From: Ustilaginoidea virens
Taxonomy: Eukaryota; Ascomycota; Sordariomycetes; Hypocreales; Clavicipitaceae
Direction of reading: 5' to 3'
NCBI RefSeq assembly: GCF_000687475.1
Contig: NC_057316.1
Location: 1-64,000, forward strand
Length of the DNA stretch: 64,000 nt
The translations under genes were made by a program, and so were the position numbers. Below are positions 1 through 59,372 of the stretch, one piece after another (the stretch's first letter is position 1; each line of letters begins with the position of its first letter). Below the pieces are notes generated by a model. The model searched no databases. It saw only the letters and a program-made list of their open reading frames with translations, and was not told the DNA's origin.

Positions 1-58
1 AACCCTAACCCTAACCCTAACCCTAACCCTAACCCTAACCCTAACCCTAACCCTAACC
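1..58 (+). repeat. Terminal telomere repeat (CCCTAA)n
   Basis: Nine or so perfect CCCTAA hexamers on the + strand from base 1. The window therefore begins at, or just inside, a chromosome end with TTAGGG telomeres. The C-rich strand reads inward as expected for a left end. The tract runs without a gap into the degenerate telomere-like start of the retroelement (AACCCGAACACTAACCCTTAACC). Confidence 0.97.
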
Positions 59-412
59 CGAACACTAACCCTTAACCTAGGATTGCGTGCTCGGGTATTC
101 TTCGGATATCCGTGACCACAGTTTGGTATAACTGTGGTGGCAGGCGCGTCGCGGCCCTGCTCACGTAAGCCAAGTGCCGCTTTACGGCGGCTGTGGCATT
201 TGCTACGTACCTAAGGTAGGCCGGCAGTAGCCGGGTTGGAGGCCTCCCTCCTGCCTATTTATTGCCGGTCTTCCCCTCACTATACTCTGCCCTGATGAGC
301 CACAACACAGGCGAAACTGAAAGAACTCTTCCTCAGGTCTTCAGTCGGCAACGTGTTTTTTGCTCATTTTTCTGCAAGTCAAAGCTGCCCTTTCCGCTAT
401 TCCTAACCCTAC
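55..412 (+). repeat. Left pLTR of the Penelope-like element
   Basis: A 358-bp direct repeat whose second copy lies exactly 3719 bases downstream (3774-4131). I saw no mismatch between them. It begins with degenerate telomeric sequence and ends with CCTAACCCTAC, also telomere-like. It holds a perfect 8-bp stem with a 6-base loop (116-137, CCACAGTT/AACTGTGG), a GGAGGCCTCC palindrome (238-247) and a hammerhead ribozyme (288-350). It probably carries the promoter, because the gene starts just past its end, but I see no clear TATA box. Confidence 0.92.
288..350 (+). ncRNA. Hammerhead ribozyme (type I), left pLTR
   Basis: All parts of a type I hammerhead are present in order. Stem I strand TGCC is at 288-291 and core CTGATGA at 292-298. 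Stem II pairs 299-301 (GCC) with 310-312 (GGC) over an 8-base loop. GAAA lies at 313-316. Stem III pairs CTGAA (317-321) with TTCAG (340-344). The cleavage triplet GTC is at 344-346 and stem I closes with GGCA at 347-350. Predicted self-cleavage lies between 346 and 347. Hammerheads in pLTRs are known from Penelope-like elements, where they would process tandem transcripts to unit length. Activity has not been shown here. Confidence 0.9.
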
Positions 413-425
413 TTTTACTTTGACA

Positions 426-3332
426 ATGGCACCTTCCTCAGTTCGGAGTTTGAACGTTGTTGATGCGTCCTCGTCGCTAGGACCCTCCCTTTCCAACGTG
501 TCGGCCATCGGAGAGTTAATCAACATCGTTCCCCATTCTTGGCGCTCGTCCATCGGCAACTATCTCACGACAGTTTATCGGGTTGCCACTAAGCTATGCA
601 ATGTGCAGAACACCATAGCACAATATGACAAGCACCATGCTGAGGGTTCCTTTCCAGCGTCCATCAAGAATGCTGTGAAGGATCCAAAAATCCAGTTCTC
701 GAAAGAATTCCTTGGGTCTGAAATTGGAAGCCTGGCTAACAACCATCTCCAGTCGGTCATCCACTCTGCGCGAAAGAACCTCCTCGAAGAAGCGCAAAAA
801 AGAAAGAAAGAGGAACTCGCCACCCTTCAGGGTTTGACTCATTTTCATGAGATAAACTGGAAGAAACTCGTTCTCGAGGTCGCTGAAAGGGTTGGAACAA
901 CGTTTAATGCGAATCCAATTGTGGATCAGTCGGGCACACAACTTAGCTGGAAAGGAACTGTGCCCGATGACATTAAACAGGATTGCAAGTTTCTTTGGAC
1001 CAAAGGATCAACATTGCACTTCAAAGCAGTGTCCCTTGCCAGAGCAATTGCAGATCGGTCCCTTGTTGAGAAGATCAAAATTCTGAATCTCAAAAAGGAT
1101 ACCGACACAGCCATGCGCGATGCAGACGTCGAGTCCTCCACCAGGGACGTTGTACGCGATGAGATGCAGACACAATTACGTCTCCTCAAAAAAGAGCTTC
1201 TCCAATCAATGGGTACGTCTTCAGACAAATGTCGGACAAGCCCAAATACTGATATCGTCATAAGGAAAAGCAAAAAAGCCCGCCTCTCAGAACAACAACA
1301 AAAAGAAAGGCGGCACGAACCCCTCTCGAGTCAAGAAAGGGCCTGCCAAGAGCAAAGGCAAGAAGAATGCGAAAAATCGTTGACGGTTGCCGCATTTCTT
1401 CAAGAGTGTTCGAAGGATTTTCGTCCGTGGGACCCGGACACATATCCATCTGTATATAGTCGCTTGACAGATCAGAGCAGAATGACGATTAACTTTGCGT
1501 TCGCACGCACTTGGGAGCTTGATTCATTACGAACAGCTTCCCCAGGCATTTTTAAACATACTTCAGTGACACTCCCAGAAGACATTGAATACATGCTTGC
1601 AGTTAATCATAAGTTCATTTTTCATCAAGCACCATTACAAAATGACGTAGAGAAGGCTAAAGAAAGCCTCCGCCGCCGAATCCGAAATGCATATTTCTTT
1701 CGCGGAAAAGATAGCACGGAATATATCCCCAAATTCCACGTGCCCAATCCTGCATGGAACCCACCGCGTGCTTCACAAGCAATTGAACAAGGAATGGAGG
1801 CGGCAATGAAAGTGATTGACACTCAAGTTGCGCAAGCACTCTCGGGCATTGCTCAAAATTCCACTGCCCAACATTTTGGCTCATGGGCAAAAGTTCAAGA
1901 GATACTTGCCAAAAACAATTGGCTCGTAAAACTCACAGATAAAAATCTGGGACTTGCGGTATTTCCTGCGCATTGGTACGACACACAATGTCTCACAATG
2001 TTGGCCGATACTGTTACGTACAAGCCAGTCTTTGTGGATCCGACACAAGCTATCTATGACACATTGATTGATCAAGTGGCCAGTTGGCGGCTACCTCCGG
2101 CTATGGAGAGATACATTCTGAGAAAGACAAAAACGATCAAGCCACAATTCCATGCGATTCCAAAAGTACACAAGGATCCTTGGACACTACGGCCGATTGT
2201 CCCGTCACATTCGTGGGTCACTACGACCACCTCAGAGGTTATTGATTATTTGTGTCAGCCACTTCTCAAGCAATTCCCTTGGATTGTGAACTCGTCAAAA
2301 GAGGTGATCAATCAGATTGAGAAAGTGCGCACCCTTGGAACAGAACCAATTTGGATATTGACCGGTGATGTGACCGCGTTCTACACAAACATCCCTCCCA
2401 AACCTTGCTCCAAAATGCTGGGCAAAATATGGGAAGTGTTCTGCAAGGAGTCGTCTATTTCGTCGCGCGCCATCAAACAAATGGTCCGCTTTGTAATGGA
2501 CAACAATTTTCTAGAGTACAGAGGGCAAACTTTCCATCAGATGAACGGTTTGGCAATTGGCACGGCTTGCGCCCCAGTTGTGGCCAACCTTTATGCTGCA
2601 TGGTACGAAAGGAAAGCCCGGGTATGCCATCAAAATGGAGTTCTAATGTACGTCCGTTACATTGATGACATTCTTTGTCTTTTTCAAGGCACTGCACTCG
2701 ATGCTAAGGCGCTCTGTGAGAACCTGAAGATCGGGCCACTCCGCATTAGCTGGTCGCATTCGTTGGAACGAAATGAGTTTCTTGACATTGAAATGTTAAG
2801 GATGCCCAACATTAGCCCGCGTGTGCTCCACACCAGGCTCTTTCGCAAACCAATGAATCGACATCTCTACATTCCCTGGTCGTCGGCTCACCCTTCACAT
2901 GTGAAGAAAGGCTTTGTCAAAGCCGAGCTCATACGATTTGCCATTATTTGCTCCACTTACGAGTACTTTGCAGATGCTCGAAAAGAATTTTATGGCAATC
3001 TGCGCAGGAGGGGATATCCTGCACAGACACTGGAAGAATGGTTTAAGCAAGTGACTTATGACAATCGGCAAGCGCTTCTCGTCTTCCGCAAAAAAGATGA
3101 AAGCAAAGTGCCTTTAATGTTGTCAGGCCATTACAATCCAGTGTGGGACTATGTAGATGTCAAGAAGGTGATCACGGAAGCAAGAAGGTTCTGGGTCAAG
3201 GAAGAGCTGCCGAACGCCCTGCAAGAACCGCTCATCCGGAGCCTTGGTCGTACTAAGAGTCTCTTTGACTTAATGTCGACATGGAATAAGACAGTGTTGC
3301 TCTCAATTTCGGACATTGCGGAAGAAGGTTAG
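426..3332 (+). CDS. Penelope-like reverse transcriptase without GIY-YIG endonuclease
   Basis: The reverse transcriptase copies element RNA onto DNA ends. It is about 968 aa from the ATG at 426, which has A at -3 and G at +4. The frame is also open upstream through a TTG at 360, but that lies inside the pLTR, so the ATG is preferred. The N-terminal third has no known catalytic motif and includes a basic, coiled-coil-prone stretch with an NLS-like RKSKKAR near residue 279. PLE hallmarks follow: DKNLGLAV (505), PKVHK (579-583), motif A GDVTAFYTNIP (Asp648), motif B GLAIGTACAP (708-717), catalytic YIDD (745-748), FLDIE (785), FRKP (806-809) and SSAHP (819-823). No GIY-YIG nuclease follows. The frame is intact, with balanced codon use and no RIP. 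A telomerase gene is excluded by the PLE-specific motifs and the flanking pLTRs. Confidence 0.93.
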   Translation: MAPSSVRSLNVVDASSSLGPSLSNVSAIGELINIVPHSWRSSIGNYLTTVYRVATKLCNVQNTIAQYDKHHAEGSFPASIKNAVKDPKIQFSKEFLGSEIGSLANNHLQSVIHSARKNLLEEAQKRKKEELATLQGLTHFHEINWKKLVLEVAERVGTTFNANPIVDQSGTQLSWKGTVPDDIKQDCKFLWTKGSTLHFKAVSLARAIADRSLVEKIKILNLKKDTDTAMRDADVESSTRDVVRDEMQTQLRLLKKELLQSMGTSSDKCRTSPNTDIVIRKSKKARLSEQQQKERRHEPLSSQERACQEQRQEECEKSLTVAAFLQECSKDFRPWDPDTYPSVYSRLTDQSRMTINFAFARTWELDSLRTASPGIFKHTSVTLPEDIEYMLAVNHKFIFHQAPLQNDVEKAKESLRRRIRNAYFFRGKDSTEYIPKFHVPNPAWNPPRASQAIEQGMEAAMKVIDTQVAQALSGIAQNSTAQHFGSWAKVQEILAKNNWLVKLTDKNLGLAVFPAHWYDTQCLTMLADTVTYKPVFVDPTQAIYDTLIDQVASWRLPPAMERYILRKTKTIKPQFHAIPKVHKDPWTLRPIVPSHSWVTTTTSEVIDYLCQPLLKQFPWIVNSSKEVINQIEKVRTLGTEPIWILTGDVTAFYTNIPPKPCSKMLGKIWEVFCKESSISSRAIKQMVRFVMDNNFLEYRGQTFHQMNGLAIGTACAPVVANLYAAWYERKARVCHQNGVLMYVRYIDDILCLFQGTALDAKALCENLKIGPLRISWSHSLERNEFLDIEMLRMPNISPRVLHTRLFRKPMNRHLYIPWSSAHPSHVKKGFVKAELIRFAIICSTYEYFADARKEFYGNLRRRGYPAQTLEEWFKQVTYDNRQALLVFRKKDESKVPLMLSGHYNPVWDYVDVKKVITEARRFWVKEELPNALQEPLIRSLGRTKSLFDLMSTWNKTVLLSISDIAEEG

Positions 3333-3773
3333 TAAAGCCGAACGGAAAGGGTGTGTCGGCAAGGTGCCTTTGCTGCAAAGCAAGAGGGCGAGGTTGGCCG
3401 ATTCGCCGAAACACAAGGCCACGTCACACCTCGGCGACCTGGGAGACGCCGGTCAAGGTCCGTTCCCTGGTTTTGAACACCGCTTCCAGTCGTGGCTGCA
3501 TGGGATTTGCGGCATTTTTCCTCGTACACTTGAGACAGCAAACAGAGTCCGTTTGGACTGGTGCCTTTGGGAAGGTACTCGCCGCAGGTGTGCACGCAAG
3601 TGTCGCCTGCGTGGAAGCTGTGTCCCCACGTTGCATAAGTTCTCAGACAGTGACTTTGAAAATGCGCATTGATTGTCGCAGACCGACTCTAGGTAATGCC
3701 CGTCGCAATTGAGTTTTCGACATTCCACTTGACATAAATCCTTGGGAGGTAAGGGAGTTGTGGTGTCGGTTCA
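3333..3773 (+). other. 3' untranslated region of the Penelope-like element
   Basis: About 440 bases between the RT stop and the right pLTR, of normal composition. Overlapping short frames occur on both strands but show no recognisable domain and no shared start context. I read it as 3' UTR. In PLE biology this part may contain the signals recognised by the RT. No GIY-YIG remnant was seen. Confidence 0.7.
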
Positions 3774-4131
3774 AACCCGAACACTAACCCTTAACCTAGG
3801 ATTGCGTGCTCGGGTATTCTTCGGATATCCGTGACCACAGTTTGGTATAACTGTGGTGGCAGGCGCGTCGCGGCCCTGCTCACGTAAGCCAAGTGCCGCT
3901 TTACGGCGGCTGTGGCATTTGCTACGTACCTAAGGTAGGCCGGCAGTAGCCGGGTTGGAGGCCTCCCTCCTGCCTATTTATTGCCGGTCTTCCCCTCACT
4001 ATACTCTGCCCTGATGAGCCACAACACAGGCGAAACTGAAAGAACTCTTCCTCAGGTCTTCAGTCGGCAACGTGTTTTTTGCTCATTTTTCTGCAAGTCA
4101 AAGCTGCCCTTTCCGCTATTCCTAACCCTAC
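3774..4131 (+). repeat. Right pLTR of the Penelope-like element
   Basis: Second copy of the 358-bp repeat, with no mismatch to the left copy noticed by eye. It starts at AACCCGAACACT and ends in CCTAACCCTAC, then merges directly with CCCTAA/CCCTA repeats. The 116-137 stem-loop recurs at 3835-3856 and the hammerhead at 4007-4069. Confidence 0.92.
4007..4069 (+). ncRNA. Hammerhead ribozyme (type I), right pLTR
   Basis: Same fold and sequence as the left copy, shifted by 3719 bases, with predicted cleavage between 4065 and 4066. Cleavage at both ribozymes of a read-through transcript would release a 3719-nt RNA (347-4065) with a 79-nt 5' leader before the RT start codon. Confidence 0.9.
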
Positions 4132-4245
4132 CCTAACCCTAACCCTAACCCTAACCCTAACCCTACCCTAACCCTAACCCTAACCCTACCCTAACCCTAC
4201 CCTAACCCTAACCCTAACCCTAACCCTAACCCTACCCTACCCTAG
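4121..4245 (+). repeat. Interstitial telomeric tract, mixed CCCTAA and CCCTA
   Basis: About 120 bases of telomere repeats directly after the right pLTR. Unlike the terminal tract, it mixes hexamers with many CCCTA pentamers, as in CCCTACCCTACCCTAG at its inner end. It marks the former chromosome end onto which the element was added, or telomeric sequence carried at the element's 3' end. Confidence 0.9.
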
Positions 4246-57555: not shown

Positions 57556-58434
57556 TTATTCCCCCCACCATTTATGGCGTATGATTTCCATAGCTAGCTC
57601 ATCAGGAAATTCGTCCAGGAAGTTATGTATAAGACCTTGCCAATCAGTTGTCACCACATTTCCGCAATACGCAGTGGTATACTCCCAGTAATCAGGGAAC
57701 CAGCCTGAAAACTCCCAATCAACGAACCCCACAATTTTTTCCCCACGTACAATGATATTCGTTGGATTTAAGTCCCCATGAGTGAAAACCGGCATCGGCC
57801 GATCTTTGTCTTGCATTGTGATCATTTTTTGCATCTCCTGACGTTCCTCCTCGTTGATACCCTTATGAGCCTCTGACGAGTCAACCATGCCCTCTCTTAG
57901 CCAGAAGTGAAATTCTCGTATGGAGTTGAAAGGCCCAAATCGAGGATAGCCATGGCCGATCCGTAGGTCTCGAAGCGACCCACCAACTGAGCTCTGGACT
58001 TGAGGTCCTGGAGGTTCTATACGTCGTAATTCATCGATGTAATCTCTTATCTGAGTAAAGATAGATTGTCGTGCTGTCTCTGACAGCCTCGACCAAGCAT
58101 TCGATAGTGGTTCACCTTGGATACTCTCCATCACGATGTAAGCTCTATTATTCCAAATAAAAGAGCAGTAGATCTTGGGAACTGGTATGGATGTGTGATT
58201 GGCTACGAACTGCATTGTAGCCGCCTCAGTCAGATGAACCAAGTCTCCTGCCTTAACTATCCGGTGTTTGGAGATTGGAACACATGGTCCGTTGCGAGCA
58301 TAAAAGCGACCTGTGGTGCGAAGGGCAATTCTAGTGAAGAGGCGATTCAAGTAAGTATTCTTGAATGCAAGGTGTTCGTATCCATGGTGTTGAGCTTCGA
58401 GTTCATTTGATTCCCGCGAGTGGCCTGTAGCCAT
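57556..58434 (-). CDS. Aminoglycoside phosphotransferase (APH)-like kinase, fungal family
   Basis: About 292 aa from the ATG at 58434 (context GCCATGGC). The frame is open 39 codons further to 58551, but that extension is Pro/Arg/Ser-rich and unlike the family. The fold is that of APH/choline-kinase-like small-molecule kinases. Visible: a nucleotide-binding N-lobe with PVPKIY and AYIVMESIQGEPL, the Brenner/catalytic motif HGDLNPTN with Asp221, and the Mg-binding VDWEFSG with Asp239. Fungal genomes carry many such paralogues, often subtelomeric or in metabolite clusters, and their substrates are mostly unknown. Antibiotic resistance should not be inferred. The frame is intact, uses normal codons and shows no RIP. 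It is the first intact gene inward of the RIP'd zone. Confidence 0.9.
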   Translation of the reverse strand: MATGHSRESNELEAQHHGYEHLAFKNTYLNRLFTRIALRTTGRFYARNGPCVPISKHRIVKAGDLVHLTEAATMQFVANHTSIPVPKIYCSFIWNNRAYIVMESIQGEPLSNAWSRLSETARQSIFTQIRDYIDELRRIEPPGPQVQSSVGGSLRDLRIGHGYPRFGPFNSIREFHFWLREGMVDSSEAHKGINEEERQEMQKMITMQDKDRPMPVFTHGDLNPTNIIVRGEKIVGFVDWEFSGWFPDYWEYTTAYCGNVVTTDWQGLIHNFLDEFPDELAMEIIRHKWWGE

Positions 58435-59372
58435 GGCGTTTCTGGGCCACTGACGCGAGCTTTGTCTTTCGACTTCTCCTGGGGGATTAGGGGGGAAAAG
58501 GGTGGGGCGCGATGATCTTGATGCATTTAGCACAAGTGTTGTGAGTTGCACGTGATTTGCAGCTAGCTAAATGTCGCCGCTTCATCCCAGGGGTGATCCG
58601 AGAGCTTGGAAATGGATGCACATATAAGTACCTTCTAAAAATGGGGTTTCTATGTACTACCATAAAACGATAAAACTGCGCCCTTTTTTCCTTATTATCG
58701 GGATGGCTCTTTTGCGCCCGGAAATCCGCTTTTCTTAACAGCCCGTTAAGGATCCTCTTGCTAAGCACCAAAAAAACCCTGTGCACTATCGCGATAGGAC
58801 CTGCTAAGGAATTTTAGTCATGAAGACAGGGGGTTATTAATTTTTAACAGCCAACATGTTTGACAGGCTTGACAGATTGATTTAAGAGGCGGCTCCAGTC
58901 AATAGGCTTACTACAGGCCAGTAGTAGTGAGTTTTACAGCCTTCTTAGCCTAAATCCTAAGGCATTAATAGCTTAGTATCCTTCTAATAAATACCTAAAA
59001 GTCTCAAGTTTGCATTGCAGGTAGTTCCCCTAGTTTTTACTAAAACAACAAGATGTAAGTTACTATTGTAGCGGGAGAGCAGCTTTGCAATCTCTGTCGC
59101 TGTTGTGGACTGGTGTGCGAGCAAGGCTGTTAACGCCTAACTCACGCGCGCGCTTGGTGAAACCGGCGGCTAGCATACTCATCGGCCTACTTCAGAGGCC
59201 GTTTAAGCATCGGCAAGCGATATAAGGTGCTTAATGCCCTGGGTTTAGTGATTGGGAATCTAGATTCTCTTTCCGAACAGCTCTCATCGAAGTCAATACA
59301 TTTTATCCCTATCCTATATAATTAACCTACCCTTGGAACATAGTTCTATTCCTATCGAGGGTCATTGGAAGC
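58435..59372. other. Intergenic region between divergent genes
   Basis: The APH-like gene (minus) and the next gene (plus) are divergently arranged, so this ~940 bp should hold both promoters. 58600-58800 has a short open minus frame without a recognisable domain. TATATAATTAACC near 59317 is a TATA-like element 50-60 bases before the + gene's ATG. Confidence 0.6.

Follow-up and report, generated by a model that had tools for sequence, protein, structure and literature searches.

The window studied here is the first 64,000 nt of Ustilaginoidea virens contig NC_057316.1 (C1), and a retroelement lies at its outer end (55-4131). The element consists of a pseudo-long terminal repeat (pLTR), a single reverse transcriptase (RT) open reading frame (ORF) and a second pLTR, and is flanked on both sides by telomeric repeats (Table 1). 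The pLTRs are direct repeats (358/358 bases alike), and the unit from one pLTR start to the next spans 3719 bp. The ORF encodes 968 amino acids (aa) from its ATG, or 990 from an upstream TTG. AT-rich subtelomere begins inward of the inner telomere tract (~4245). A first-pass annotation of this DNA had described a complete element with terminal CCCTAA repeats, two 358-bp pLTRs, an RT ORF and an inner telomere tract, and all of these were confirmed. On sequence grounds, the element is an endonuclease (EN)-deficient Penelope-like element (PLE), assigned by its RT profile, pLTRs, hammerhead motif and chromosome-end position. It is a real, young member of an already known kind of element.

Pfam placed RVT_1 at ORF residues 618-755 (32.6 bits). 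The first pass had noticed PLE hallmark motifs in the RT; RT motifs A, B and C were located at residues 646, 708 and 742. A profile built from 38 members of the protein family scored 94.0 bits on P0041, a GIY-YIG PLE and the one PLE reference, versus 7.2 and 6.8 bits on host telomerase (TERT) pieces and at most 1.9 bits on 20 further host RT loci. The host comparators were open pieces of at least 60 aa, and their scores are depressed because the genes are decayed or split by introns. Clustering with telomerase or with long interspersed nuclear elements (LINEs), which the first-pass annotation had named as the contrary outcome, was not seen in this comparison. The nearest fold among solved structures is TERT, as expected because PLEs are kin to TERT; Pfam TERT had no match in the ORF at E 1. 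The GIY-YIG domain, already reported missing, was found by Pfam (E 0.1) in 0/121 family proteins (38 + 48 + 35, some truncated) and was detected in the control P0041.

Telomeric LINEs of the MoTeR/FoTeR/SLACS kind cut telomeric DNA by a restriction-like endonuclease (REL). FoTeRs (Fusarium) and MoTeR1 (Magnaporthe) have the same position and orientation as the U. virens element, with the 5' end to the tip (excerpt of PMC12857005). That the element is such a LINE is nevertheless hardly credible: the profile scores separate it from the host RT loci, its pLTRs and hammerhead are PLE traits, and the REL-type CCHC pattern occurs in 0/121 family proteins (a pattern search without positive control). 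A loose RHD pattern occurs in 12/121. In summary, RT kinship, direct pLTRs forming head-to-tail units and a hammerhead motif in the pLTR, the traits of PLEs, were all found, as were the missing GIY-YIG and the chromosome-end insertion with 3' end inward that mark EN-deficient telomeric PLEs. The C-terminal REL endonuclease with CCHC of the MoTeR/FoTeR/SLACS group was not found by this search, nor was the combination of RNA-binding domain and TERT RT.

The genome searched comprises 37.16 Mb in 8 contigs, and CCCTAA-type repeats open all 14 ends of the seven large contigs. The product of a window gene (57556-58551) matches a protein of U. virens, the rice false smut fungus, at 100% identity over the 88% covered, and its next hit at 57%. 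The element is present at three of these ends, all left contig ends, and DNA and protein searches returned the same three places (C1, C2 and C3). A genome-wide pLTR search, proposed in the first pass, found six pLTRs, every one inside these copies. Internal insertions, also named there as contrary to the claim, were not encountered: DNA, pLTR and protein searches of the whole genome returned neither an internal copy nor a solo pLTR. These searches score best candidates only (3/3 element and 6/6 pLTR candidates were scored), so a strongly decayed copy might be missed. All three copies have the 3' end inward and the 5' end toward the tip, and each junction carries telomere repeats. They share one inner junction, CCTAACCCTA|CCCTAA, and the inner telomere tracts beyond it differ among the three ends.

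The C1 and C3 copies are identical over the 4075 searched bases. The C2 copy differs from C1 by 33 small indel events inside the element and no substitutions, and its outer junction lacks 6 nt that C1 and C3 have. The copies are young, since C1 and C3 are identical and C2 has no substitutions. We read the C2 indels as the mark of an unpolished contig end, probably assembly error. The earlier description of the copy as intact stands for the copies at C1 and C3, but not for C2, which is frameshifted as assembled. The error-rich C2 end, together with the location of all three copies at extreme contig ends, could also mean that reads of one telomere were used to extend several contigs. We consider this artefact improbable, as the inner telomere tracts and inner flanks differ among the three ends and 11/14 ends lack the element.

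Subtelomeres of other end pairs have kilobase-long sequence in common, 82-97% identical (82-93% for the longest pieces), namely C1L with C1R, C7L and C7R, C2L with C2R and C6L, and C3L with C6R. In the window, sequence common to many chromosome ends runs inward from ~4655. This sharing indicates that chromosome ends exchange or duplicate. A single recent insertion that telomere-repeat recombination then carried to other ends would fit this, and would also fit the near-identical copies, the telomere tracts on both sides and the shared inner junction. We regard it as rather unlikely. The element-bearing ends share just two inner-flank stretches, both linking C1L to C2L (324 and 248 bp, ~70% identical), the C2 outer junction is 6 nt short, though at an error-rich end, and recombination leaves the first copy unexplained. 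The copies themselves fit either three insertions or one insertion followed by telomere recombination.

A telomerase RNA-binding domain match (PF12009) at C2:3102439-3102898, apart from the element, suggests that the host retains a TERT gene. Given this match and the 11/14 ends without the element, it is not telomere-maintaining for the host. The first-pass interpretation is supported as far as an EN-deficient chromosome-end element is meant, but 'telomere-adding' should not be taken as telomere maintenance.

Our analysis also revealed a telomere-complementary word ahead of the ORF. The element contains no 10-nt telomere word other than CCTAACCCTA, at 402-411 and 4121-4130, and 0.01 such words per unit would be expected. 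This word ends 14 nt ahead of the ATG and coincides with the 3' junction of the insertion. A shorter telomere word, of 8 nt, is found close to the opposite pLTR end (65-72). In five homologs the frame stays open ahead of the conserved start. Three of them (P0018, P0021 and P0039) were found by pattern; the other two, P0238 and P0239, were chosen by eye from their N-termini, which start like P0236 and P0241, when the word was already being sought. In its open frames (CCCTAA)n translates as NPN, LTL or TLT, and one of these occurs in 5/5 of the extensions, compared with 2.3% of random 25-aa family stretches. The implied telomere word ends 12, 12, 15, 15 and 24 nt ahead of the start, and with U. 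virens (PNP) included it stands 12-24 nt ahead in 6/6 members. No other protein with an extension of at least 18 residues ahead of a recognisable start was found among the matches listed, some N-termini being too divergent to judge.

Each pLTR contains a hammerhead motif with all three helices, stem III being 6 bp. The hammerhead reading rests on a descriptor of conserved core, three helices and cleavage triplet, which was written after the motif was seen. The descriptor matches only the six pLTR copies in 406 kb on both strands, and has 0 matches in 10 Mb of random sequence of element composition. Rfam found no hammerhead on the whole element. In its short-region scan, two of six matches were hammerhead families, RAGATH-1-hammerhead (E 1.5) and HH9 (E 0.6), neither of which reached the gathering score. 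Compared with shuffled sequence, folding is better for the whole pLTR (z -4.24) and no better for the 94-nt stretch around the motif (z -0.12). Ribozyme activity is not assured, because the hammerhead fold lies 4.6 kcal/mol above the minimum-energy fold. PLE and Terminon hammerheads are minimal, as a rule without helix III or loop contacts (partial text of PMC7761336), and the predicted U. virens hammerhead with helix III is an exception to this rule. The hammerhead core of U. virens starts at -134 relative to the start codon. In P0238 (39% identical over the RT part, frame open 45 codons upstream), residues 3-10, LMSLQGEK, allow CUG-AUG-AG...GAA-AA at -129 nt, a back-reading without statistic. 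The three-helix hammerhead, the two further copies and the telomere word before the ORF are new beyond the first-pass annotation.

We think it very likely that the element is an EN-deficient PLE that inserts at chromosome ends, probably primed by annealing of the telomere overhang to element RNA. The sequence data show its anatomy, copy number, position, orientation and junctions, the lack of a detectable EN, the RT kinship and the recurring telomere word; overhang priming, the form of the template, ribozyme activity and re-capping by telomerase are inferred. In the RNA, each head-to-tail unit would have CCUAACCCUA as its 3' end, directly ahead of the next start codon. An exposed G-overhang, (TTAGGG)n-3', would anneal to this word and be extended by the telomerase-like RT of the element, and a nicking enzyme would not be needed. 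The new copy would be laid down with its 3' end inward and its 5' end at the tip, and telomerase could then add repeats to the telomere-like cDNA end. We propose annealing because the telomere complement adjoins the ORF start, and because there is a precedent for internal initiation in PAc, a Poseidon PLE of Anolis.

The template could be a read-through linear RNA or a multimeric or circular RNA. In the former, a transcript running pLTR-ORF-pLTR-telomere would pair with the overhang by its own telomeric 3' tail, and the word before the ORF would be a remnant between tandem units. This is a serious possibility, if somewhat short of an even chance; it accounts for the exact off-register CCCTA|CCCTAA junction in 3/3 copies, and unprocessed RNA is the main in vitro template of an animal PLE (PMC11167929). 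The two predicted hammerheads, if active, would however cut such a transcript after 346 and 4065, and the narrow 12-24 nt spacing in 6/6 members is unexpected for remnants. This spacing favours a multimeric or circular template. Tentatively, three-helix hammerheads may generate such unit-length RNA, with an internal start at a built-in telomere template beside the start codon. One lap plus one pLTR would yield the observed 4077-bp insert. If so, this would be a mobile element that works like telomerase, with the template inside its own mRNA.

Several points weigh against overhang priming by an EN-deficient PLE. The profile comparison has a single PLE reference and fragmentary host comparators, and in a sequence-only search of PDB the profile hit RTs of group II introns (best E 0.0077) rather than TERT. 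For the homologs the telomere word was deduced from codons instead of DNA, and chromosome-end position was established for the U. virens copies. Subtelomere exchange allows spread by telomere recombination, and the off-register junction is explained equally well by read-through RNA or by recombination. In vitro, PAc initiated 111-118 nt into its ORF, where the sequence has no match to the target (PMC11167929).

Table 1. Features of the element in the window and its copies in the genome
Feature	Position	Strand	Basis
Terminal telomeric repeats (CCCTAA)n, C-strand, outside element	1..56	+	sequence; pattern search
Left (distal) pLTR, 358 bp	55..412	+	identity with 3774-4131
Hammerhead motif, predicted cleavage after 346	282..356	+	descriptor scan; coordinates and fold energy; sub-gathering Rfam matches
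Hammerhead core CUGAUGA	292-298	+	descriptor scan
Hammerhead stem I	288-291/347-350, outer part 282-285/353-356	+	descriptor scan
Hammerhead stem II	299-301/310-312	+	descriptor scan
Hammerhead stem III	316-321/340-345	+	descriptor scan
Telomere-complementary word, 14 nt ahead of start codon	402..411	+	word search; homolog codon reading
ORF (968 aa) with conserved N-terminal region and telomerase-like RT core at ~376-886; endonuclease domain not found	426..3332	+	translation, Pfam, profile
3' untranslated spacer	3333..3773	+	sequence
Right (proximal) pLTR, 3' end = insertion junction	3774..4131	+	pLTR identity
Second hammerhead motif, predicted cleavage after 4065	4001..4075	+	descriptor scan; outer stem coordinates = first copy + 3719
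Telomere-complementary word at junction with inner telomere tract	4121..4130	+	word search; junction comparison
Inner telomere tract (CCCTAA/CCCTA), degenerate, read as former chromosome end	~4131..4245	+	sequence; junction comparison
Element copies, left contig ends	C1:57-4131, C2:25-4085, C3:39-4113		DNA search

Indices of repeat-induced point mutation (RIP) were compared with cut-off values. Flanks up to 48 kb are RIP-like (TpA/ApT 1.43-1.53, substrate index 0.59-0.69); values at 48-64 kb are 1.33 and 0.85. The ORF is not RIP-like (0.47 and 1.44); the two indices disagree for the pLTR (1.75 and 0.98), which is thus of mixed make-up. Nearly all listed ones of the 151 RVT_1 matches genome-wide contain TAG/TAA stops, as expected after RIP; unlike them, the element ORF at C1 and C3 is untouched.

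The first protein search gave 41 hits, 40 family members and P0041. A second search with the core alignment gave 439 hits, the best 120 of which were examined. Sequence records of at least seven further genera of ascomycetes (Cordyceps, Metarhizium, Pochonia, Pyricularia, Beauveria, Diaporthe and Aspergillus) include homologs. Among the matches listed, identity over the RT part is 38-65%, and named hosts are Cordyceps javanica, Pyricularia sp., P. pennisetigena, Metarhizium humberi, Pochonia chlamydosporia, Aspergillus nomiae, Beauveria bassiana and Diaporthe eres. The idea that the element would extend the group to ascomycetes is not borne out, given these homologs and a PLE proposed in Zymoseptoria tritici in 2014 (excerpt of PMC4522978). 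The ascomycete clade sits in databases as hypothetical or unclassified RT proteins, under names such as 'hypothetical protein', 'uncharacterized protein' or 'reverse transcriptase domain'; one homolog has the UniRef name 'Helix-turn-helix domain'. In a quick maximum-likelihood tree (117 rows), the U. virens protein pairs with the metagenomic P0001 (77% identical; Shimodaira-Hasegawa-like approximate likelihood ratio test, SH-aLRT, 96). In P0024 (Pyricularia sp. CBS 133598) the RT-core block is repeated, with two alignments overlapping at query residues 612-733, by duplication or assembly error. Scans of viral contigs with the ORF, the family alignment and P0041 found no relatives.

Contig-size quartiles of 38 metagenomic family rows are 3742/3774/3846, versus the 3719 unit; those of a control kinase (50 metagenome-only rows) are 3113/7318/17448. 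The near-unit contigs were not taken as evidence for circles, because circles cut at random would leave ~22% of ORFs whole and full-length proteins are present in 33/38 rows. Unit-length RNA, collapsed telomere flanks or broken pLTRs are possible sources.

Telomerase and PLE RTs share ancestry, and how EN-free PLEs find chromosome ends is largely inferred. The U. virens family combines an intact ORF with a defined junction and with a candidate template word recurring near the same place in relatives, and with these priming of the overhang on element RNA is testable in vitro.

EN-deficient telomeric PLEs were reportedly described by Gladyshev and Arkhipova in 2007, as Athena in rotifers and Coprina in basidiomycetes. 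Like the U. virens element, these have an RT without GIY-YIG, a telomeric position and an inward 3' end, with telomere repeats at the 3' junction and telomeric repeats added at the 5' end (partial texts of PMC3846280 and PMC4522978). EN-deficient PLEs are thought to prime from chromosome ends, telomere repeats being added later (same part of PMC3846280). The U. virens element differs in its ascomycete host, and is likened to Athena and Coprina by description. Its telomere word 12-24 nt before the ORF and its helix-III hammerhead may be further differences. Agaricus bisporus also has PLEs at chromosome ends (excerpt of PMC7473861). A term search in the fungal telomere review PMC8381367 found no mention of Penelope, and among the titles and abstract openings listed by searches of open-licence PMC literature there was no description of the U. 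virens element or its clade.

The putative telomeric PLE family of Z. tritici (Dhillon et al., 2014; excerpt of PMC4522978) is likewise from an ascomycete and has telomere repeats at an inward-pointing 3' end. It measures 3.4-3.5 kb, with full-length copies on 26/41 ends. It was assigned by position and ends, the sections covered holding no RT phylogeny, pLTR or ribozyme, and we liken it to the U. virens element by description. MoTeR1 and FoTeRs are also fungal telomeric retroelements in the same orientation; unlike the U. virens element, they are non-LTR, have a restriction-like endonuclease and lack a pLTR (excerpt of PMC12857005).

PAc shares the pLTR-ORF-pLTR arrangement and a hammerhead near the ORF start (PMC11167929). 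Its minimal RNA has to include 172 nt from the start of the ORF, likely the protein-binding part according to the authors, and reverse transcription starts internally, on RNA spanning the pLTR-ORF junction; a similar start in the U. virens element is our proposal. The PAc hammerhead cuts only with protein present. In contrast to the U. virens element, PAc has GIY-YIG, targets AT-rich DNA and uses a start site without homology to the target (PMC11167929). TERT, the nearest solved fold, extends the telomere 3' end on an annealed C-rich RNA, as the U. virens RT may do. Unlike TERT, the element is mobile and copies its own RNA, and its family profile scores ~7 bits on host TERT pieces.
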